Positions 2,482 to 63,443 of a stretch of DNA of 64,000 nt are shown here, piece by piece. The notes under the pieces were generated by a model. The model made no database searches and had not been told where the DNA came from. It saw only the letters and a program-made list of their open reading frames with translations. Source of the stretch: Coemansia sp. RSA 487 (lineage: Eukaryota > Kickxellomycota > Kickxellomycetes > Kickxellales > Kickxellaceae). Numbering within the stretch: the first letter of the stretch is position 1; each line of letters opens with the position of its first letter. The stretch is from NCBI GenBank assembly GCA_027577595.1, contig JANBRJ010000074.1, positions 24,815 through 88,814 on the forward strand, read 5' to 3'. The translations under genes and the position numbers were made by a program.

Positions 2482-2946
2482 TTAAAAATGGCTTGGATAG
2501 ATTATATGGCCACGAACAGAAGCGGGTAAAAGGAATCCATTGGGATTACGGCCGTTGTTTAGGACAGTATCGCGTCTGTGCAAACTAGTGTCTCTCCTGA
2601 TGGGGCCAGGCAATCCCAGCATAAGCCCCTTCACATTGTTGAGCAAACCATTGGCGCTGGTTCCAACGTTGCCAGCCAGCCTAGATTCAGACGGGCTTGC
2701 AATGTTGTTGTTAATATCTGCTTGGTTAGCAGGCCTGTTATCAAAGGCACCAACGACTCTGCCGCCAATCAAGTTTGCTCCGTTGAAGCCACTGTCAAAA
2801 TGCGATCCCTCAGCCTGTAAACCGAGGTTGAGATTTGGATTGGAAACGATTCTTGGCCCGGTGGCCAGATTCGGACCTCTATTGGATCCCTGGAGCTGAG
2901 CCAACGCAGTGGTAGCCACAATAAGAATACCGACAAACAATTTCAT
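2482..2946 (-). CDS. Small secreted protein, diverged family member 2
   Basis: The protein is 154 aa with signal peptide MKLFVGILIVATTALAQ. It keeps the family skeleton (QGSNRGPNLATGP, SNPN, GNVGTSANG) but is the most diverged of the four: SFNHQA has become AFDNRPA and ILDSNF has become INNNI. The C-terminal third has dibasic sites (PIRRDTS, LHRRDTVLNNG). The RRDTVLNN piece matches KRDAVLNN in the gene at 4703-5329, suggesting a shared Kex2-type processing point; this is inference. The start ATG is the only one placed before a signal peptide. Confidence 0.8.
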   Translation of the reverse strand: MKLFVGILIVATTALAQLQGSNRGPNLATGPRIVSNPNLNLGLQAEGSHFDSGFNGANLIGGRVVGAFDNRPANQADINNNIASPSESRLAGNVGTSANGLLNNVKGLMLGLPGPIRRDTSLHRRDTVLNNGRNPNGFLLPASVRGHIIYPSHF

Positions 2947-3513
2947 TTTTCGGGCATCGAATGAAGTAGAGCGATATTATAACGAAACGCAAAAGAAAAA
3001 GCGGTTATGGATTTAAAAAATGGTTTTATAGAAAAGGGGATCTGAATTCTATGCTCTTTAATATAATCTTCCAATATAATTTCTTTTCAATTTCATATTT
3101 CAGAACGAAGTGTTTGGTTACACAGGCTGAGAATCATACCAAATAGTGATGATGATGTCCCTATTGTTCTGCAGAAAGCGTCCTACATTCCAGCTTGAAA
3201 GAAATAGCACTAGAGCATATCTAGCACGTAAGCCACTGGGTTAGACTCGAAAAGTTAAAACATTGTCTGAAATACACATGCAATTATTTTGTATTTCAAC
3301 AATTGCGACATTCCAAAGCAATAGAAATTACAAGCTGTGTCCGGTAGCGCCACAGTCACAGTAGTCAATAAAAAGTAAATATGGTTTAAAATACATTCAG
3401 CCTCCACAAAATGCATGGGATGTGCTAGGAAAACTGTGCTATTGTTATTGAATCATATTTTTCAAAACAAAAGGGGGCTGAAAATAGCGTGAATCTGCTT
3501 CGCATATTTTTGT
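2947..3513. other. Intergenic between secreted genes 2 and 3
   Basis: AT-rich promoter and 3' sequence. No supported gene or RNA. Confidence 0.6.
3024..3030 (-). promoter_or_regulatory. TATA box of secreted protein 2
   Basis: TATAAAA on the minus strand, 78 bp upstream of the ATG at 2946. Confidence 0.45.
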
Positions 3514-3912
3514 TTAGCGCCTCCTGTGGATGCCAGGAGGAGGACCACCAGCGAAACCACCAGGAAGTCCGAGTCCCGCCAAAATATCGCCGATATTGTT
3601 GCCGGCTCCGTTGGCAGTATCGCCTCGGTTGCCAGAAATGTCGTTCTTTGACGGGTTGACAAAGTTGCTGTCCAGAATCGCCTGGTTTTCAGCCTGGTGG
3701 TTGAACGAGTTACCGACCTCGCCGCCGTGGCCAATGACGTTGCCTCCGCTCTGGCTGCCATCGACAAGTGAGCCTTGGAATTGGACTCCGTTGTTCTCGT
3801 TCGGGTTGGAGACAGCGTTGGATCCTTCAGAGAGATTGGGGCCTTGGTTGCTGCCTTGTTGCTGAGCTAGGGCAACAGCTGCGGCGAAAATAACGGTGGT
3901 AAAGAGCTTCAT
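3514..3912 (-). CDS. Small secreted Asn/Gly/Ser-rich protein, family member 3
   Basis: The protein is 132 aa with signal peptide MKLFTTVIFAAAVALAQ. The mature part carries the full family core: QGPNLSEGSNAVSNPN, DGSQSGGNVI, SFNHQAENQAILDSNF, NPSK and GDTANGAGN. It ends in a short Gly/Pro tail closing with HRRR, a polybasic terminus where members 2 and 4 have dibasic sites followed by extra sequence. It is the shortest complete member, so the conserved core is about 100 residues. Function is unknown; extracellular location is inferred from the signal peptide. Confidence 0.88.
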   Translation of the reverse strand: MKLFTTVIFAAAVALAQQQGSNQGPNLSEGSNAVSNPNENNGVQFQGSLVDGSQSGGNVIGHGGEVGNSFNHQAENQAILDSNFVNPSKNDISGNRGDTANGAGNNIGDILAGLGLPGGFAGGPPPGIHRRR

Positions 3913-4702
3913 TATTGCGATTTAAGGAAAGCTGAGAAGAAGGTACAGTGTTTGTAAAGATAGGATTTTTTTGTAGAAAGCGTAGCGTGGAGAGGAAGAA
4001 TATTGGTTTTTGTATGTCAGTATAGGAATGGAGCGGGGTACTTTTTTTGCCTTTCTTATATATTCTGCTAGCTTGCTAGGTTTTTCAAGAGTGGGGATGT
4101 TTTAATGCCGTATACGAACCCGAAACTATACGAATAGAATATTTTCAAGATTTTGTTTACATTTCTAAACCAAGAACAAGCAATATTGTCTTGAGTCCAA
4201 AGAGAAAGCTACCAGTGGGTTTCTATATAACGGTTGGCTAGGGGAACGCCACCCATGCCATGAAAAACACGCAAAAGACGTTTCTTTATTGTTTCAAGGA
4301 ATGCAAAAGCGAACAAGGAGGGAAAATAGCAAGTACCGCCACACTAGATATCCCTAACACATATAATCTTCACACAAAGCCGCATATTTCCTGGCAGGCC
4401 ATTTTCAAATTCATATCAAATACGCAAACAGCAAGAATTACCCTTTTATAAAGATCCTTTTAATTTATTAGAGTCCATCAATTAATCAAAAGATAAACAC
4501 CAAAAAGAACAAGAGGATGCTAGTAAAAAGAAGCTGGGAGCAATGCTAAACTTTGAATAAGTTATCTGGAGAATGCAATAGCAAAGAAATAAAGTGGAGG
4601 AAAGGGGGAACCAGGGGAAGGGGATATTGCGAATAAACGATGCTTTGAAAATCCCATTTTTCCATGCTAGCTAGCAATTAAGGATCTCTTTATGCCTCGC
4701 TT
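3913..4702. other. Intergenic between secreted genes 3 and 4
   Basis: Promoter of gene 3 and 3' region of gene 4. AT-rich. A 63-codon frame at 4260-4451 shows no family features and I do not call it. Confidence 0.6.
4055..4062 (-). promoter_or_regulatory. TATA box of secreted protein 3
   Basis: TATATAAG on the minus strand, 143 bp upstream of the ATG at 3912. Confidence 0.5.
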
Positions 4703-5329
4703 TTAAAGCTGGTTCTGAACAATGCCAGCTTGCTGGACATTGTGGTTGTAGCTTGAGACGGGAGCAGCATAGGCGGGATGAGCAATAGGAGCAGCATATG
4801 CGACAGGGTGAGGAGCGGCATAGGCAATGGGGCGGGGAGCAGCATAGGCAATGGGGCGAGGAGCCTCATAGACAACGGGGCGTGGGGCGTAGGCAACAGG
4901 AGCGTAGTGGGCGCCGTACGCATGGCCACCATAGCCGCCGAAGCCGCCAAAACCGCCAAAGTTGTTGAGAACAGCGTCGCGCTTGATGAAGCCACCGGCA
5001 CCGAAGAAGTCGCCGATGCTGTTGCCCTCGCCGTTGGCGGTGTCGCCAACGTTGCCGGAGACGGAGCTCTTAGACGGGTTGATGAAGTTGCTGTCCAGGA
5101 TGGCGCTGTTGGATGCCTGGTGGTTGAACGAGCTACCAACCTGGCCGCTGATCTGGTTGCCTCCGCTCTGGCTGCCGTCAAAGAACGAGCCCTGCGCCTG
5201 GAACCCATTGTTGACGTTGGGGTTCGAGACGGCGCTGGGGCCCTCAGAGAGGTTGGGACCCTGGTTACCCTCCTGCTGCTGAGCAAGGACGGCGGTGGCG
5301 GCAACAACGAGAGCAGCAAAGAACTTCAT
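4703..5329 (-). CDS. Small secreted protein, family member 4, with Ala/Pro/Tyr repeat tail
   Basis: The protein is 208 aa with signal peptide MKFFAALVVAATAVLAQ. The family core follows (NQGPNLSEGPSAVSNPN, DGSQSGGNQI, SFNHQASNSAILDSNF, NPSK, GDTANGEGN). A dibasic site (IKRDAVLNN) then leads into a Gly/Phe/Tyr stretch (FGGFGGFGGYGG) and at least seven short repeats of the form AYAAP-RPI/V. That tail resembles the low-complexity AAP(A/V) repeats of arthropod cuticle proteins and some wall structural proteins, probably by convergence. The GC-rich codons contrast with the AT-rich flanks. A role in wall or extracellular matrix is inference. Confidence 0.88.
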   Translation of the reverse strand: MKFFAALVVAATAVLAQQQEGNQGPNLSEGPSAVSNPNVNNGFQAQGSFFDGSQSGGNQISGQVGSSFNHQASNSAILDSNFINPSKSSVSGNVGDTANGEGNSIGDFFGAGGFIKRDAVLNNFGGFGGFGGYGGHAYGAHYAPVAYAPRPVVYEAPRPIAYAAPRPIAYAAPHPVAYAAPIAHPAYAAPVSSYNHNVQQAGIVQNQL

Positions 5330-29669: not shown

Positions 29670-29752
29670 TAGAACCTTCTTTTATCTTACGCATTGCTAA
29701 TGGTTAGTCCTCTTCAACTTTCCTTTATTGAATAATTAGACATGAAAATATT

Positions 29753-30277
29753 CTAGTCAATGCGTGGGCGCTTCGCGTTCTCGTCATCGCTATTGTCAAC
29801 ATCCATCATTGACGACGATGCCATATCAACAGCAGTCTCAGCAGTCTCGTCCTTTTCATTCGTGCCATCACCTTCTTGCTCAACATCGTCGTCCAAGGCG
29901 TTTATAGGTTCTGTCCCATCATCGCCATCATCGCCTTCGCCATCACCTTTGTTTTTGGCCTTTGCTTTCTTATCCCTAACCAGCGCAGCGTGTGCAGCAA
30001 GCTCGCCCTGTAGCCGCTCGATAAAGTCCGCAAGTCCGACTGCTTCCAACGCCTTGAACACATCGCTGGACACGATCGTCTTGTGGCCGCCTTCGCGAGC
30101 ACAGTCGTTTGCGGTGGCGGCCAAGTAGCTAACAAACACGGTTGCTGCTTTCGTCACTGCCTGACGCGCTTCCTTCTGGATAGCAATGTTTTCGGGAAGA
30201 CTGCTTTTGATTAGGCGTGTGAGGACGGCTTTTGGGAAATCCAAGTCGTCAATAGTGGTTTGTTGTGCAGAAGACAT
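29753..30277 (-). CDS. DPB4: DNA polymerase epsilon subunit D / CHRAC histone-fold protein Dpb4
   Basis: The protein is 174 aa. The histone fold covers about residues 8-100: DLDFPKAVLTRLIKSSLPEN, then IQKEARQAVTKAATVFVSYL, ANDCAREGGHKTIVSSDVF and KALEAVGLADFIERL. These match Dpb4/POLE3/CHRAC17 closely. The C-terminus is acidic and ends in a basic KRPRID. Dpb4 pairs with Dpb3 in Pol epsilon and also serves in a chromatin remodeller. Confidence 0.93.
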   Translation of the reverse strand: MSSAQQTTIDDLDFPKAVLTRLIKSSLPENIAIQKEARQAVTKAATVFVSYLAATANDCAREGGHKTIVSSDVFKALEAVGLADFIERLQGELAAHAALVRDKKAKAKNKGDGEGDDGDDGTEPINALDDDVEQEGDGTNEKDETAETAVDMASSSMMDVDNSDDENAKRPRID

Positions 30278-31126
30278 CGTTTGAATATTACAAATATAAA
30301 GTGAAATAAAATGATAGTGAAAAAGTGGCCTTGTCGGTTCACTGGTTTCAAAAGAAAAATTAACAGTCTGATCAGGGCTGGTTCTTTACATGGGTTGTTG
30401 AGTTGGTAAGAGTATGGGTGTTTTGTTAGACGCCCTTAGATTCGGAGATTAGGCTTTTATCTAACAGGATGCCCAAGACAATAAACGATACTTTGGTTGG
30501 CGCTATCAGATAAACATAACTATATTCCTAGAATCAACATATTAACACAAAAATACCTAATTTGTAACGCATTTTTATGCTACATGTTAACGATATTATT
30601 AGCTTTGCCGACAGATTGTATATTGCAAAAAACAAGAGCCACCATTATCGACACAGCTTATTGTAGGCATAAAATGAGGAGAGAATTTGATATCACCATT
30701 CCCTTTCTGTTTTCTTTGCTGCGCTTGCGAAGAAACTGCAAAGTGCACACACATATGTTTGAAATCGCACCTTTTGCCATTTTTAAGAAATAAGCATGGT
30801 TTCAGCGATTCAACAAGTATGAAATTTCTTTTTTCTCACGCTAATATCTTTTAAAAGAATAAAAATCCCAATGAAAAGTGGAAGGATAATAGTGATGTGC
30901 TTGGGAATGACTAAAACACATGGGGAACAGATAAAGTCTTGGGCACATTACCTATGGTTTAAAATTGGGGTATTTTTGAATTACAAAGTAAAATATTCGC
31001 CATTATGCTTATTTCCAGCACACGCCAATCGTGGTTTTTTGAGAAACTAAAGACTTTATAATTGGAAAGGATGAGCTAGATGCTAGTATCACTACAGAAA
31101 TGAGAAAAATTCATATAGCGTTGGCA
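30278..31126. other. Intergenic, AT-rich
   Basis: DPB4 promoter and AT-rich DNA with no supported gene. The 98-codon frame at 30497-30793 begins with a non-ATG codon and has no domain. Confidence 0.5.
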
Positions 31127-31134
31127 TATAAAAG
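31127..31134 (+). promoter_or_regulatory. TATA box of CaaX mini-gene 1
   Basis: TATAAAAG, 134 bp upstream of the ATG at 31268. A clean TATA followed by a CA-repeat leader (CCACATCCACATCCATT). Confidence 0.6.
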
Positions 31135-31267
31135 GCAAACATTTCTGGTGCCTTTAAACTATAATTTCCCTTCCATCCACATCCACATCCATTAGCTAAT
31201 TCAGTCAGTATATTCTATACATACACAGGAATTATTTATTCAAACTTGCAATACATATCAAAGAACA

Positions 31268-31402
31268 ATGCCTACAGCAGATACACAAACTTATGTCTAT
31301 GAGGCAACTCAAGCAACCCAAACAACACCTCTACCCACAACTAGGAGTAGAGGGGTAGATGCATCTACACAAACTGAAAGCAAATGTTGCATTATATTAT
31401 GA
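31268..31402 (+). CDS. 44-aa CaaX-box mini-protein (lipopeptide pheromone-like), copy 1
   Basis: An ATG-initiated 44-codon frame begins MPTADTQTYVYEATQATQTT, passes through a Thr/Ser/Arg-rich middle (LPTTRSRGVDASTQTES) and ends KCCIIL at a TGA. The last four residues, CIIL, are a canonical CaaX prenylation box; a terminal Leu favours geranylgeranyl transfer. A second Cys precedes it. The protein has no signal peptide or membrane span. A good TATA box sits 134 bp upstream and GC content rises within the frame. Fungal a-factor-type pheromone precursors are short, signal-less and CaaX-ended, so that is the leading idea. Alternatives are a small membrane-tethered protein or the tail of a lost G-gamma or small GTPase gene. 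Confidence 0.6.
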   Translation: MPTADTQTYVYEATQATQTTPLPTTRSRGVDASTQTESKCCIIL

Positions 31403-32600
31403 TTAAAATGGCTCCAACTGTGTTTGTAGAACCTAAATAGTTGTTGGGTTGTGTTGACGTTATTTTGGTATGTATCGTATCTGGCCTGGACAGGCTCGTG
31501 TATATCCGTTTGACAATCGGCTCTGTATACTGGGTCTGGTAATTTGATTAAGATAATTACCAGATCCGGGTGTATAATATCGGATTATACTCGTTTACGT
31601 TTTTACTTGAAACCTTTTAATAAATAATCTATATTTCCAAACTTGGTGATTTCAAGCTTCAACTAAATGAACAACCAAACCGTTCTATTTATAGGAATCG
31701 AGCTGTATATCTCGATTTCTATAAATATTACTACATTCATTTCTTATACTGTAGGGAATATTGTTAAAGTGTCCTAGCAATACTTCACAGACTGACGGAT
31801 TTATCATGGACCAGCATAAAATAACAGTAGTTTATAGATGTTTTCTTATTCTTCCAAAACTAGCTAAAGAAAAAATGATCCATGCCCTTTTTCCTCAAAG
31901 GCGATGACCACGGAAAATGCTGCCTTTATATGTAACCGAGAGCTGTTACATATAGTGCATTATGGCAGTGTTAACATTTAGTTGTAATGTATTGAGTTGA
32001 TAAAAAGAATAAAACTAAGAGATAACCGGTTTGGTTGTTTGGCAAGCACGATTTTTATGTATTTGTGTATCGGGTTCCTTTAGATCAGGAATCATGGAAG
32101 TATCGCTTCAGATCATCACATAGTGGTTGTGCAAACCTGTGACAATGGACCAGCCTTGCATACGACAACACACTAGCGTAACAGACTACAGAGTCCGTTT
32201 ATTAGCTTAGCATAACCTATACTATGATAAGAATAACTTTATGTCCGAATTCCATGAGCGAAATATGTTCTCTGGAGCACGGAAGTCGGACCTTGGTGCG
32301 GATTTACAATCATATTTTCTGTTGATGATATTGGTCGGTAGAGTCACGTGATTTTACTGATCAATTGGCAGTCAACGTTCGCTTGTTATTTTCTGGCTAA
32401 CAGGTCGTATGTTTGCTACGCAAGGGATTGCATAGCATTGGAATTAATATTGTAGAAACCAAGATAGGCCATTTAGTGAATAACATATTCTCTATCCAGC
32501 TTAGGAGCACATTAAATGCTGATCTTAACATGGATAAATGAAAGCTACCAATGAATTAGTAACACCTTGTTGTAATACGCACATAAAAAGTGGACAGGGG
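31403..32600. other. Non-coding AT-rich region with three strong hairpins
   Basis: Inverted repeats lie at 31535-31544/31555-31564, 31686-31702/31711-31727 and 31927-31936/31945-31954. Two of them sit inside a 370-bp interval bounded by inverted 13-bp copies of AACAACCAAACCG. No open frame of note. A plus-strand stretch near 32130 reads CDNGPALHTTT, only faintly like a transposase or integrase. Confidence 0.45.
31670..32039. repeat. Possible fold-back element with 13-bp terminal inverted repeats
   Basis: AACAACCAAACCG at 31670-31682 recurs inverted at 32027-32039. The interior carries a 17-bp hairpin (31686-31727, one mismatch) and a 10-bp hairpin (31927-31954). I see no clear target-site duplication, so the element call is tentative. 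Confidence 0.35.
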
Positions 32601-32803
32601 AAGAATATATCCAGTGTCATCATTTATCTTTTTCTTTGTCCCAAGTGTATAGAATGTGTATCCCACGCCTAGGCTTGAAATAAGTACACATTTCTAAATA
32701 AATCATTATATGCTTTTGATCGAAAATGGGCATGTAATTTTGTATGAATAAAAATATATTATAAAAATTGAAGGAACCAAGAGAAGAAAAGACCTGTCTA
32801 CCT

Positions 32804-33215
32804 GCGATGACATGGCGTGCTGCTAAATAATGGTAAACATACATCCGGTAATTAGATTTCGTGTCACATGTAAACACTTTTGGAGTGGAAATATGCGGAA
32901 AGTAAATGGAGACTTGGGCACACATTAAATGTTTATTTTAGCATGAAGTAGCTTTTTATATAACAAAGCAACTAATTCACTGCCATTATCTTTTTCATAA
33001 GCACACAGCTTCTTTTGCAAAAAAAAGCAAACTTTTCTAAAATAAAAAATGATGCATGCTGAGTCACAGTCACAAGTTTAATTGCTGTAGTGTTTGTATG
33101 GCTACAAAAGCCAGGCTGTTCATGAAAAATAAAGACAAGGAACTTTAGCTCCGTTATGACTTTTATTTGTAACAATAGATATGCATCCGGTAAATAAATC
33201 TCGTGTCACATAATA
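32804..33215 (+). repeat. Dispersed repeat family R1, copy A
   Basis: Contains three blocks found elsewhere in the window. Block Z (ACATACATCCGGTAATTAGA, 32845 region, with a second partial copy at 33183). Block X (CACACAGCTTC then TTTTCTAAAATAAAA). Block Y (GTAGTGTTTGTATGGCTACA, then AAAGACAAGGAACTTTAG). The same blocks recur at 42755-42978 and 43703-43930. No coding capacity. Confidence 0.7.
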
Positions 33216-34707: not shown

Positions 34708-37255
34708 ATGTCGAATGCGGGTAACGAGTTGCCAAGCACAACTTTGGAAATTCTGCTCCAGTCAATAAATGGTCTCGTTCAATCGCAGACAAACTTTATG
34801 GAGTATCAGAAGGAACGAGACAGGAGGCAAGAGGAGCGTGACGAAAGGCACGAAAGAGAATTCCGCGAGCTTAAGGAGGTCAACATAGGCATCCAGCAGA
34901 GTCTTGGTCGCTTGGGTAGCGCGTTTGAAGCCCAGCCCCAAAACAACTTTCGAAGCCAGGTAGGTTTAAGCTGTGCTCCGTGGTGCTTTCAGCAGCTGTG
35001 AGTGCTTTTTTCTTTGCACCTGTTCAAAGCAGCGCAGCTAGACTAGACCAAACTAAAACGCCCCAGTTCTTACGTTGCTTCTTTAGGTTTCGATACTGTC
35101 GCAGTCTTTCGACCGTACTTCCACGAGAAAAAAATTGGTTCTGTCCAATTCAGCGCAGAGCCTATGCAGAGCAGCATAGGTATGTTGGTGCTTTGTGCTT
35201 TTGCAAGCCATTTTCCCTGTCTTTTTGTTAGATACAGAGCGTTGGCTGCTACTCTAACGTTAACGCTAACGCCAAGCTTGTAAGATGCTGCTTTGTTCTG
35301 TTTGTCATGTAGAAAGTACACTGCACAGCCGTCAAACCCCGTCCGGCAGCACCGCCAAGGAACAATACAGGAACATTGGTCTGTATCTGAGCCCCAGAAC
35401 CCAAAAAATTGAGGATACAGAGCAGCTACTGGAGTTTCATGGGTTTAAGTTGCCAGATCTCGGTTCGTTGGATGACTCTGGTAGCAGGATTAGCCGTATC
35501 CAAAGCAGCTTCCAGGAATACTACAGCAAATCCACGTTACTGGTAATAGATGGCGACGGGTTCAACGGTTGTAAGGAGTTGACAACTGAGCAACATGTCC
35601 AGCACGCGATGCACATGCTGTTGAGCGCTATCTCCAGCACTGTCAGCAACTCTGATGACAGACCCAAGATGAAATTCATCGACAAATCAGGAGACCGAAT
35701 AGACTCCAAATACAAGCCCGATTTTGTGTTTGTTCCTGTGCACTCGGAATCCTCTCGGTGGTCAAACGTAGGAGTGGTCTGCGAACTCAAGAGCATCAGC
35801 AACAGAGATGCCAACGTTCTCAACGGGCAAATTGGGCAATACTTTAACCAGATGTGGATGAAGCAGCCGCGAAAGCTCTGTATCGGAGTGGTTGCATCCC
35901 GTGGCAAGCTCCACATATTGGTGAATACGCGCGATGGGATTGATTATGCGGTGGTAGGAACACTGCCATTCGTCAGGCACGACAGCAGCAGCATGTACGC
36001 CAGCGATGAGCATTCGCAGATAACGCTTGAGCCGGGCAGCGGCGAATTGGTCGTGCGCGTACTGACGATGCTTTTCGGGCTGGACTTTGAGCAGTGCGGC
36101 ATGCTAGCTCCACAGGCTGGAGGAGTGTCGCAAGGGTTTGGCTTGTGCGAGACCATGGAAACCGCAGACCAGGACGATACAGCGCTATCTGTTGTTGTTG
36201 GCGGCGACATCCAGCAAGCACCGTACCGGATTCGTCTGCCGGGCAATGGCTATCTGGGCGGCCGTGTGGTGTACCCAGTGGGCACAACGTCGTGGGTACA
36301 CAAGGCGGAGGTTGCTATAGCTGGCGAGCGGGAAAGCCATGTACATAGCGCTGTGGTGAAGATTCAGTGGTGCCGCAGCAAGCGGCCGACAGAGAAGCGG
36401 ATATACGATTTGCTGCGCGAAGCGGCTATTCCAAACGTGCCAGGCGTCTTTTTTGGCGGTCAGATCGAGACAGGCGGGACTACGACAGGCACCAGGTGCA
36501 ATATACTGGCTGTCGAGGACTGTGGCGTCGGGATCAGCCAGTACGCCTGTATTCTTGCCCAACAGCCATCAGTCAACCATTGGCAGCTGCTGGATATCGC
36601 GTGCGGATATATCCACACGATCTATGCGGCGTGGGCAGGGAAAACGACACGGATCCTCCACCGCGACATTTCCTCGGGAAACCTCATGGTTCGTGACAAC
36701 CTCGCCATGGTGATCGACTGGGAGTACGCTCTGTTTGCCAACGTCACCAAACAGAGACAGCTCGTAAGCAGCCATCCGCTCACGGGAACCTTGGCCTATG
36801 CGAGCATGGGAGTTCTGAGCGGAGGAACTATGCGCTCCGCAACAGACGATATTGAATCGCTTTTTTACGTACTAGCGCACGCCATCGAGGCAGCCCAGCA
36901 TTCCGACGATGGGCGTAGAAGAGCCCCACAGGACAAAGGGATGCAAAAGCTTTGGAGCGGGTCGACATCGGAGGATGATCTGCGTCAGGAGAGGAGGCTG
37001 TGGTTCGGCTCTAGCGATACATACAAGTCTCGTCTGGGTGAAAGCTGCCCACGCCTCTGGTGGAATCTTCTTTTGTCAATGTACAATATCCTTGACATTA
37101 GCAGGCATTCCATGGCTAGCGGTGTTATCCTTAGGACCAGAAGCGTCAAGGAGTATGTGCAGCAGTTGGTTCTAGCGCTTCAACCAGTCCTGCAAGCTTA
37201 CGGGGCTGAAGCAAGACACTTTACCCGGCTAGTGGAGTTTGGGCAGTTCGTTTAG
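34708..37255 (+). CDS. FunK1-type protein kinase with N-terminal PD-(D/E)XK-like region (multi-exon)
   Basis: Exon 1 (34708-34959, 84 codons) encodes a charged coiled coil (EYQKERDRRQEERDERHERE) and ends at CAG|GTAGGT. The main exon begins near 35313-35317 and runs to 37255. Between them a segment reading FDTVAVFRPYFHEKKIG (35096-35193) is probably exonic, but I could not make all phases agree. A region with KPDFVFV then VVCELKS (about 35715-35790) has the D...ExK spacing of restriction-endonuclease-like folds. The kinase part has the FunK1 hallmarks HRDISSGNLMV (about 36660) and VIDWEYAL replacing DFG, then GTLAYAS. FunK1 is a fungus-specific kinase family of unknown substrate. Some Crinkler-type effectors pair a nuclease-like and a kinase domain; linkage to them is inference. 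Confidence 0.75.
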
Positions 37256-39032: not shown

Positions 39033-41582
39033 ATGGCGGCCACCGGCAAAAACCACCCCAAGAGGGGCCGGAACCCCTCAATAAATAGGCGCAAGTCCAA
39101 TATACACCAAGTGCAAACTGGAGGAAACGCAGATGTAGAGTGTATTTCGGCTGCAAGGAAAAGACAAAAGAACAATGATGTCCAGACACCAGACAACAAT
39201 GAGTACCCTGTATTGAACACACTTCTGCTCAGGATTCTTATATAAACACATTGATATTCTATTGATACGATTGCCACTATTTGCATACCCAACTGCCATT
39301 GTATAGGACAAAAACAGAACGAGTTGCCGAAAGGCACAGCCACATCAACACTCTGCGTTTCTTGTGGAAAATGTAAAGGCACGATCGATAACACGCACAC
39401 AAGCATGGAGGAGATCATGAACGAGCGTAGGCAAGAGGCAGGGTATATTGCAAAACACGCCGTCAGGAAGGACATAGACAGTCTCTTTTCGCTTGTTAAG
39501 CCAAAGAAAACGGCAAAAGCCATTGTAGATCCGATAATCGAAGCGACGCTGGCGACCATCAACAACGGATTTAGGACACTTTCTGGAAAACCCATCGATG
39601 CTGTCATCAGCAAGGATAGGTTGGCAGAGTATGGAAACTCCTTCGATCTGGACCGGGCAGTTGAATCTACGTTTCGGTTGAGCAAGCTAAACGAGGAGCT
39701 GTTTCAGGGAGTGAGCGAGGCAGTTATGTATCCGCTGTTCAGAGACTTTATCATGCTGGTGGCACACCATGTAAAAGCTGGCGCGGAAAGCCTCATCGCC
39801 GAGCGTAGCGTCAAGCCGAAGGGAAAACGCAAGAAGCCCTCTGCTGCAATAGAACCGGTTCTTATTCTCCCGTACAACGGCGGTGACTTCAAGCCGGAGG
39901 GTAGCGACGACAGAACAAAGATCGATGGGGCGCTGGCGCTTTGCAAGCTGTCATCCCCGATCGAGCCGCAAAGCAGCTCCAATTACAAGGACATGTTTGC
40001 AATCAATGAGCTCAAGCGGCAGGAAAGTGAGTCACTGCAAGCGTTTACGCAGCTGGTCGAGTATACACGGAATATCTACGCAAACCAGGACCACAGACGC
40101 TTTGCCTGGGGGCTCACGATGTGCGGCACCAAAGTCAGGGGCTGCCTTTTCCACCACGACGGTGTCCGAGCTACGTCTACAATGGACATTGCAAGCCCCG
40201 GCGGGAGAGAAAGGCTTGTGGCACTCCTTGTGCATTGGTCGTTTTGCAGCTTCACTCGACTCGGGTACGATACAAACATGAGGCGGCTCAAGGAAGAGAA
40301 CGCGTGGGAGATCCGCTGCCCCGATCACGACGATGACGGCAAACGCAATAGCTTTACATCATATATCACCACAAGAACGATACTGAACGCATCGTCGCTG
40401 TTCGGCAGGCACACGCGCTGCTACATAGCAAGGCGCAAGGACGATACAAGCGGCACGGAGGTTGTCTTAAAGGACTCTTGGTCCTTGCCGCGTGACTTGA
40501 AGAAGCAAAGCGCAATCTCAACAGTCCCCGACGAGGCGCGCAATCTGCAGCTGATCAAGGAGAAGTTTGCTGGCGAAACCCTGAACTTTAGCTACCCCCA
40601 GGTTGTCACCAGCAGCAGAGCAAAGCTTAGTGTTGGCGGCAAGTACATCATAGATGATACGTTGGCAATCTACGAATACGATGACGGCGATGAGGAGCAA
40701 ATGTATCGTGTGCGCAGCCTTATTGTCACGACGCCGGTTGGCGGTTTCATAAAGCGTGTGAAAAACGAAGCCGAGCTGGTTCTGGTTCTCTCTGACGCAA
40801 TGGAATGCCACAACGCCATCCTTGAGAAGTGCGGCTTGCTTCACCGGGACATATCGGTGAACAACATCCTTGTCATCACCAATGACAGCGACGACTCTCT
40901 GCGCCGGCCAGTGAAGGGGCTGCTGATAGACTACGACCACGCGATTTCAGTGGATGAGGGTTCCACTGGCAACGGAACAAGATCGGGAACACTCCCGTAC
41001 ATGAGCATCCACAATTTGGAAGGTGCTCCCGGAAAGCGATCTGCCCTTGATGACTGGGAGTCACTGCTCTACTTGATATGTTGGCTCGGGACATTCGGCA
41101 TCAACAGCAAAGACCGTGACAACATCAACAAGGAAAAGACAGCCGAGACAGAAAAATGGCGACATGGGACAATGCAGGACATTGCAAAATGTAAGCGCAG
41201 GCAAATGAACAGCATGGACACCTTTTCTGTATCTATTCTGGCCGGATTCCAGGAAGAGTACCTTATACTTAAGCGCTTGGCTACTAGCATTTACATGGCA
41301 CTATTCCAGCACGACGGATGCGAAGGAGCCTCCCTCGATACGCAAAATATAGTGGCTTCAACTTCGTACGCTCTAGAAATTGCTGCTAAACTGAACAGCC
41401 TACAGGGTGATCAATCCTCCAGCAAACAGCCCAAGCCCGATCCGCTTGCTGTTCGCAAAGAATATGAAAAGGCAATTGTGGATGATCTTTTGAAGGCTAT
41501 TCGATCTGCCACAGAAACATCTGAGGATTATTGTGTGTTATTAGCTGCAGCACAAGGCAGCAAAACAGCTCCAAACCAGTAG
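39033..41582 (+). CDS. FunK1-type protein kinase with nuclease-like N-terminal region (2 exons proposed)
   Basis: I propose exon 1 at 39033-39209 (MAATGKNHPKRGRNPSINRR, basic and nuclear-signal-like), a 108-bp intron, and exon 2 at 39318-41582, for 813 aa. If exon 1 is wrong, an internal ATG at 39405 starts the protein. The region around 39925-40010 has a D...ELK pattern (KIDGALALCKL then FAINELKRQ) like PD-(D/E)XK folds. The region RFAWGLTMCGTKVRGCLF is shared with the truncated copy upstream. The kinase core has LLHRDISVNNILVI, LLIDYDHAI in place of DFG, and RSGTLPYMSIHNL, all FunK1 hallmarks. Substrate unknown. GC-rich and intact. Confidence 0.85.
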
Positions 41583-44925: not shown

Positions 44926-45204
44926 ATGGGGTCCCAAATAACAATTGAAAGCAAGTATAGTGGTAACACACATATTCATACTACTGTTAGTAGCAATGAG
45001 CAATCAGAACCTACTACAGTTTTAGGTCTTAAGAAACTTATTAGCAACATTGAAAATGTTGATGCCAAGTCAGTGGGCCTTTTCTTTTCTGATGGGACAC
45101 GTATACCAGATGGAAATCTCCTTATTGTCCTTTCACCAAACAGAAAACCAATCACCTTGCATTTTAAGAGAATCAAACCAGTCACCAGAAGAATTAAAGT
45201 GTGA
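44926..45204 (+). CDS. Small Ubl-like paralogue A, unknown function
   Basis: The protein is 92 aa from the ATG at 44926 (MGSQITIESKYSG). It is a clear paralogue of the gene at 46594-46950; both share EPTTVxGLKKLISNIENVDA and LFFSDGTRIPDGNLLIV. Beta strands flanking one helix and an SDGTxxxDGNLL turn suggest a ubiquitin-like fold, but I cannot confirm this and there is no Gly-Gly end. The C-terminus is basic. It sits inside the TIR-bounded segment and is followed by a perfect hairpin at 45275-45303. Confidence 0.6.
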   Translation: MGSQITIESKYSGNTHIHTTVSSNEQSEPTTVLGLKKLISNIENVDAKSVGLFFSDGTRIPDGNLLIVLSPNRKPITLHFKRIKPVTRRIKV

Positions 45205-46593: not shown

Positions 46594-46950
46594 ATGCCCG
46601 TTGAAATAGCAGTTATAAGCAAGCATAGTGGTACAACATACACGCATACTGCTCTTAGTAGCCATGAGAAATCAGAACCTACTACAGTTTCAGGTCTTAA
46701 GAAACTTATCAGCAACATTGAAAATGTTGATGCCAAGTCAATGGGCTTTTTCCTTTCTGATGGGACACGTGTATTAGATGGAAATCTCCTTATTGTTTGT
46801 TCACCAAACAAAAAAGCAAGCACCTGGTATTTTAAGGAGTTGTCCAAGCGTCCAAATAGTAGTGGAACGAATCCAAAAGCGAAATTCAAGAAAATCAACG
46901 ATAAAAAACGAGTAAGTAAACATGTCAGAGTAAGTGACGTGTTTAAATAA
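46594..46950 (+). CDS. Small Ubl-like paralogue B, unknown function
   Basis: The protein is 118 aa from the ATG at 46594 (MPVEIAVISKHSG), which aligns exactly with the start of paralogue A. Shared core: SEPTTVSGLKKLISNIENVD and SDGTRVLDGNLLIV. It carries a 26-residue longer, strongly basic tail (KRPNSSGTNPKAKFKKINDK). It lies just outside the right TIR, so the duplication may be linked to movement of that segment. Function unknown. The Ubl-like idea rests on predicted strand pattern only. Confidence 0.65.
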   Translation: MPVEIAVISKHSGTTYTHTALSSHEKSEPTTVSGLKKLISNIENVDAKSMGFFLSDGTRVLDGNLLIVCSPNKKASTWYFKELSKRPNSSGTNPKAKFKKINDKKRVSKHVRVSDVFK

Positions 46951-63269: not shown

Positions 63270-63443
63270 CTAGGAAATCACACATCCTTTACCAGAACCT
63301 TTCCTTTCTTGCTTTTTCTTCCTCTTCTGTTCTGTTTTCTTTGCTTGTTCCTTTTGTTCTTTCTTTTTTTGATTTTCATTATACCATTTCTTAAATTCAG
63401 CATCTTCAAACAGCGCAGCCGAATATGAAATTGGATTAGGCAT
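63270..63443 (-). CDS. 57-aa polybasic CaaX-box mini-protein, copy 2
   Basis: An ATG-initiated 57-codon frame begins MPNPISYSAALFEDAEFKKW, continues with a long Lys/Gln/Glu helix-like stretch (ENQKKKEQKEQAKKTEQKRK), and ends GSGKGCVIS at a TAG. CVIS is a canonical CaaX box; a terminal Ser favours farnesylation. The polybasic tract before it is the classic second membrane signal of Ras-type termini. A TATA box sits about 95 bp upstream. It has no GTPase motifs and no signal peptide. As with the frame at 31268, it could be a lipopeptide precursor or a small prenylated membrane protein. It stands alone in AT-rich DNA. Confidence 0.6.
   Translation of the reverse strand: MPNPISYSAALFEDAEFKKWYNENQKKKEQKEQAKKTEQKRKKKQERKGSGKGCVIS

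Follow-up and report, generated by a model that had tools for sequence, protein, structure and literature searches.

A 44-codon open frame ending in KCCIIL as a candidate gene for a small prenylated protein in Coemansia sp. RSA 487

The window, by which we mean the whole stretch of DNA analysed (64,000 nucleotides, C74:24815-88814 of a 17.79-Mb genome in 184 contigs), holds at 31268-31402 of its + strand an open frame of 44 codons with the translation MPTADTQTYVYEATQATQTTPLPTTRSRGVDASTQTESKCCIIL* and the C-terminal end KCCIIL. Is this candidate a tiny gene, and if so, what kind of protein would it specify? A preliminary description had taken it for a TATA-driven gene encoding either a lipopeptide pheromone or a small prenylated protein, and translation confirmed the frame, its length and its end. 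The ATG lies in the context AACAATGCC, with A at -3, and the reading frame is open over 68 codons, the nearest 5' stop being a TAG at 31193-31195. The CCIIL end (31385-31399, +) comprises a CaaX box, CIIL (31388-31399), which the terminal-Leu rule as given in PMC4894686 predicts to be of the GGTase-I type, and a second Cys before the box. Upstream, the candidate TATA box TATAAAAG was located at 31127-31134 (+), which is weak evidence for a promoter. Its presence had been described correctly but its distance, given as 134 bp, had not: 133 bp lie between box and ATG, and 141 bp between the start of the box and the ATG. A pyrimidine-rich stretch between the two (31165-31190, +) is a possible transcription start region.

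The upstream neighbour, at 29753-30277 on the opposite strand, is a histone-fold gene (PF00808, E 9.3e-11). Dispersed repeats (31444-32300, no strand) start 41 bp past the stop codon, outside the gene, and mark the downstream limit of the candidate. In the search with DNA of this region, for which 40 of 109 candidates were scored, the repeat-bearing part of the query from 31444 gave 65 genome matches, and its first 544 bases (30900-31443), covering the frame together with 368 bp 5' of it, gave no match other than themselves at E≤0.001 and are single copy in that search. Since repeat matches begin only at 31444, after the stop, the idea that the frame is part of a repeat was rejected. The interval 31444-33211 is a mosaic of short dispersed repeats, with a hairpin of 17-nt arms at 31686-31727, and looks like nested short mobile elements; 3' of the repeats, a fungal kinase domain (PF17667), indicative of a fungal source, was found in two proteins of the window (35285-37255 and 39324-41582). 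Rfam and tRNA scans across the window found none, and the RNA structure of 31160-31440 (z -1.35) gave no support for a structured RNA. The 44-aa peptide had no Pfam match at E≤1, and the only place in the genome that it matched at E≤0.001 was its own.

How much can the individual features tell us? Of the window's 530 ATG frames with 20-120 aa, 5 have a strict CaaX end, which in one case closes a Ras-family domain (PF00071); 40 third-order Markov sequences lead one to expect 1.25 on average (sd 1.03). Loose CaaX ends were found on 6, against 8.8 (sd 2.4) so expected. In one simulated genome-sized sequence per model, chance frames of at least 40 aa ending in C[IV][IV]X with a favourable last residue numbered 26 (window model) and 13 (AT-rich model). 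The general criterion is not above chance and a CaaX box by itself is weak evidence for a gene; the preliminary description had allowed that such a box can arise by chance, and the simulated sequences agree. Among 429 intergenic frames of 35-60 aa, TATAAAWR occurred at -160 to -60 of 20 in the sense and 19 in the antisense orientation, and TATAWAWR of 34 and 28, respectively. The sense count was slightly above the antisense count in all six comparisons made, and a TATA box, which barely discriminates a gene from a chance frame, adds almost nothing. The pyrimidine stretch was dropped as gene evidence because it is common among small frames, 100 of 422 having one that equals or exceeds it (23 of the 422 if C is given weight). 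At -0.40 bits per codon the frame ranks 262 of 436 in codon score, below the other two forward frames of its stretch (-0.29 and 0.12). However, two 40-aa CaaX paralogues described below score as badly (-0.57 and -0.48), so that the score is blind to such genes, and codon usage was rejected as support, being undecisive in either direction. That the frame opened by chance in AT-rich, non-coding DNA beside repeats is favoured by the want of a relative at E≤0.001, by a codon score that does not rise above that of random small frames and is exceeded by two frames of the same strand, by the expectation of general CaaX frames by chance, and by a TATA box that is not enriched.

The exact form of the end argues otherwise. 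A search for CC[IV][IV]X, in which a TRR ending was used so that TGG was admitted beside the stops, found 37 places in the genome, against 16 for the reversed pattern, and CCI[IV]L followed by a stop occurs seven times, against none for its reversal. Twelve of the 37 places are CC[IV][IV]L with a true stop (17.8-Mb genome). Four of these (on C36, C77, C119 and C167) are without an ATG frame, close to the 3.9 and 5.6 expected by chance from two Markov models. The other eight close an ATG frame of at least 40 codons. Chance would give a mean of 0.33 such frames per 17.8 Mb under the window model and 0.08 under the AT-rich one, from 12 simulated genomes with each. The exact CC[IV][IV]L end exceeds chance, and hence is informative.

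Seven of the eight frames have relatives, the 44-codon frame being the sole orphan (none at E≤0.001). Of the seven, five are members of a tandem array on contigs C44 and C122 (including that at C122:24523), one is by eye a Rho-like GTPase on C79, which clusters with other GTPase frames, and one is a 40-aa protein on C150, with a paralogue on C147 that is 83% identical and ends in CCTIL. This tandem family numbers 13 clustered frames, lying at C122:42-2664 (+), C122:21701-25520 (-) and C44:130859-134833 (+); nine end in CC[ILVT]IL and four are without that end. All nine rows of its alignment end in CCxIL, the rows having been chosen for that end. The family has no convincing Pfam match, and a profile search gave 13 weak PDB matches, none better than E 0.024 and including a designed thioredoxin (0.043), glutaredoxin-3 (0.48) and a thioredoxin (0.85), from which we give it the tentative label thioredoxin-like; its members are possibly small thioredoxin-like proteins with predicted prenylation. 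Those that end in CCxIL have no TATA box in the stretch scanned. The 44-aa peptide does not cluster with this family at E≤1e-4. A CCxIL-type end is, on these sequences, given by this genome to several unrelated small proteins, and the other carriers (the Rho-like GTPase, the tandem family and the Cys/His-containing 40-aa pair) do not look like pheromones.

Composition points the same way as the exact end. The peptide has 25% Thr, 34% Thr+Gln and 41% Ser+Thr+Gln, each of which ranks first among 436 small frames, and with 11 Thr and 3 Ser in 44 residues its Ser+Thr content is 32%, reached or exceeded by 7 of the 436. There is an in-frame repeat, ADTQT ... ASTQT; among 300 codon shuffles, 5 gave a 15-mer repeat at least as good. 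So extreme a composition among small frames carries weight in favour of a real gene. Since the excess of exact ends and the extreme composition and repeat concur, we consider the frame very likely to be a real gene. A chance frame is unlikely, given how few CC[IV][IV]L frames of such length are expected per genome, the extreme composition, and the failure of the codon score on the 40-aa pair too. The preliminary description had let its call rest on CaaX box, ATG, TATA box and composition jointly; the exact CaaX type and the composition bear it out, whereas the TATA box, at 20 sense against 19 antisense occurrences, does not.

A real coding sequence might also be the terminal exon of a spliced gene of greater length, e.g. 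one for a G-gamma subunit or a prenylated GTPase. For 24 codons 5' of the ATG the frame has no stop, and a CACAG near 31226-31230 with a CTAAT before it was picked out by eye as a candidate splice acceptor. None of the stop-to-stop pieces of at least 45 aa on the + strand of 29670-31270 is, by eye, GTPase- or G-gamma-like, the upstream neighbour is the histone-fold gene on the opposite strand, and the single match to G-gamma (PF00631) in the genome lies on another contig (C20), in a frame ending GCGCSVM. This reading we regard as highly improbable. That the peptide is itself a G-gamma subunit was rejected, as it shows no GGL domain (no Pfam match at E≤1).

The best explanation, in our judgement, is that the frame is probably a real orphan gene whose predicted product is small, disordered, prenylated and tethered to a membrane. 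Because the other proteins with a CCxIL end do not look like pheromones, a small membrane-tethered protein is the simplest reading of the sequence. We propose that a short Thr/Ser/Gln-rich polypeptide, probably disordered, would be made in the cytosol and that GGTase-I would add a geranylgeranyl group to Cys41, as the CIIL end suggests; farnesylation in its place is possible. The last three residues would then be cut off and the cysteine methylated, and the adjacent Cys40, the second cysteine before the box, might be palmitoylated, as a Cys just before the CaaX box is linked to palmitoylation in Ras proteins (PMC8146680). The outcome would be a small tail at the inner face of a membrane, perhaps, by way of speculation, acting with or competing against other prenylated proteins. 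An ICMT (Ste14-type) match over the cut-off is present in the genome (PF04140 on C23, E 2.4e-22); the preliminary description had proposed looking for a Ste14 homologue, and this is a match of that type. ICMT serves any CaaX protein, so that the match is not specific to a pheromone. This match and the CCIIL-type end on unrelated proteins support, as a prediction, the alternative of a small prenylated protein that had been offered at the outset.

Two known groups resemble this product. The tails of Ras and Rho GTPases share with it the Cys directly before the CaaX box, and a terminal Leu is found on many Rho proteins; unlike these, the 44-codon frame has no GTPase domain in it, nor was one found near it. 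Small CaaX proteins of up to 100 aa, as reported in PMC10569646, share its size and CaaX end, with no demonstrated sequence relation, and provide its most literal description.

Could the peptide be a pheromone after all? It would then be an a-factor-like lipopeptide precursor, prenylated, trimmed on its N-side, exported and sensed by a Ste3-type receptor of the partner, with the trimming perhaps falling near TTRSRG to yield a peptide such as GVDASTQTESKC or a shorter one; we consider this identity unlikely. According to PMC10569646, the one strictly conserved character of a-factor precursors is that they are very short (<100 aa) and end in CAAX or CPAX; the putative ones of Leotiomycetes have 45-64 aa, an N-terminus rich in Ser and Thr like that of Sordariomycete precursors, and mostly CTVM ends, or CTIL in a few species. 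At 44 aa, with a CIIL end, a Ser/Thr-rich N-terminus and 32% Ser+Thr overall, the peptide matches this form, and in the same account the precursors of Sordariomycetes and the putative ones of Leotiomycetes resemble it further in falling below annotation cut-offs. Some precursors of the a-factor type start, like the peptide, with MP, and predicted ones starting MPSTTTQT appear in PMC3068285. G-gamma and ICMT matches, moreover, are present in the genome.

Against this, the peptide is single copy at E≤0.001, has no known homologue, differs from these precursors in its double Cys with terminal Leu, and lacks the Gly-Tyr motif that is found near the C-terminus in Sordariomycetes and in 87 Leotiomycete candidates and is not universal. 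Its CCIIL-type end is common to proteins that do not look like pheromones. Small CaaX proteins are themselves common, seven Leotiomycete genomes each encoding 2-12 CaaX or CPAX proteins of at most 100 aa, with a single type put forward as the pheromone (PMC10569646). No six-frame match to Ste3 (PF02076) or Ste2 was found in the genome at E up to 10, and neither model matched in any control genome either. According to PMC6733946, mating pheromone receptors are conserved throughout the fungal kingdom, so the search may have missed one. In the pheromone call that had been made earlier, length and Thr/Ser richness fit, while the want of a second copy and the CCIIL end on proteins of other kinds tell against it; beyond form, the pheromone reading is unsupported. 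An accompanying remark held that no CaaX pheromone was known from Zoopagomycota-like fungi; in open-licence papers we found no report of one in zygomycete-grade fungi.

The 40-aa Cys/His proteins, encoded at C150:1540-1662 (-), ending CCIIL, and at C147:1309-1431 (-), ending CCTIL, resemble the 44-aa peptide in size, in type of end, in AT-rich repeat-bearing surroundings and in a dyad over a TATA-like box. They differ in having a Cys/His-rich body, as opposed to a Thr/Gln-rich one, with no body sequence similarity. The dyad, AAARGC-N13-GCYTTT, has the same spacing and type before all three genes and overlaps the TATA-like box of each; at the 44-codon frame it reads AAAGGC-N13-GCCTTT (31131-31155, no strand). 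Genome-wide there are 21 sites, against 6 for the reversed pattern, and of 157 TATA-like sites in the regions surveyed, 29 carry a dyad of some kind. Since it was noticed post hoc and 3 of the 21 sites were examined, the shared dyad is a weak hint, to which we give little weight. That a zygomycete-grade fungus should use a geranylgeranyl-type lipopeptide as mating signal, with a CCxIL-type end and, perhaps, the same kind of TATA-dyad promoter as the 40-aa CaaX genes, seems to us quite unlikely. Three more frames related to the Cys/His pair, on C150 and C171, are without a CaaX end, and copies of a 134-bp repeat of the window (32737-32869) lie close upstream of both 40-aa CaaX genes.

Several other small frames were observed in the course of this work. 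The window contains one more tiny CaaX frame (63270-63443, -; 57 aa), which is Lys-rich, ends in GKGCVIS and has TATAAATA 102 bp upstream; its Pfam matches are all sub-threshold. In an AT-rich island, two small proteins related to each other (44926-45204 and 46594-46950, +) are perhaps ubiquitin-like, Pfam ubiquitin giving E 0.066 for the former and no match for the latter. At 2482-5329 (-) there are three related proteins in tandem with starts that by eye are signal-peptide-like (MKLF...ALAQ), and a Pfam scan of one of them gave no match. Lastly, C44:116149-121926 (-) holds five frames of 45-59 aa in a row, all rich in Lys or in Lys and Glu and all preceded at 125-154 bp by a TATA-like box. 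By eye they resemble tiny genes, but in sequence they form no cluster at E≤1e-4.

Tiny CaaX genes lie under annotation limits, and PMC10569646 notes, for the fungi it covers, that pheromone genes of this form are missed. The mating genetics of Zoopagomycota is still described as not well understood in a 2023 review (PMC10386755). Since this genome uses CCxIL-type ends on unrelated families, a CaaX box on a tiny frame needs to be weighed before a pheromone is called, and the presence of such ends on several unrelated small-protein families provides the background for any call of that kind. If real, the 44-codon gene would be a concrete candidate.
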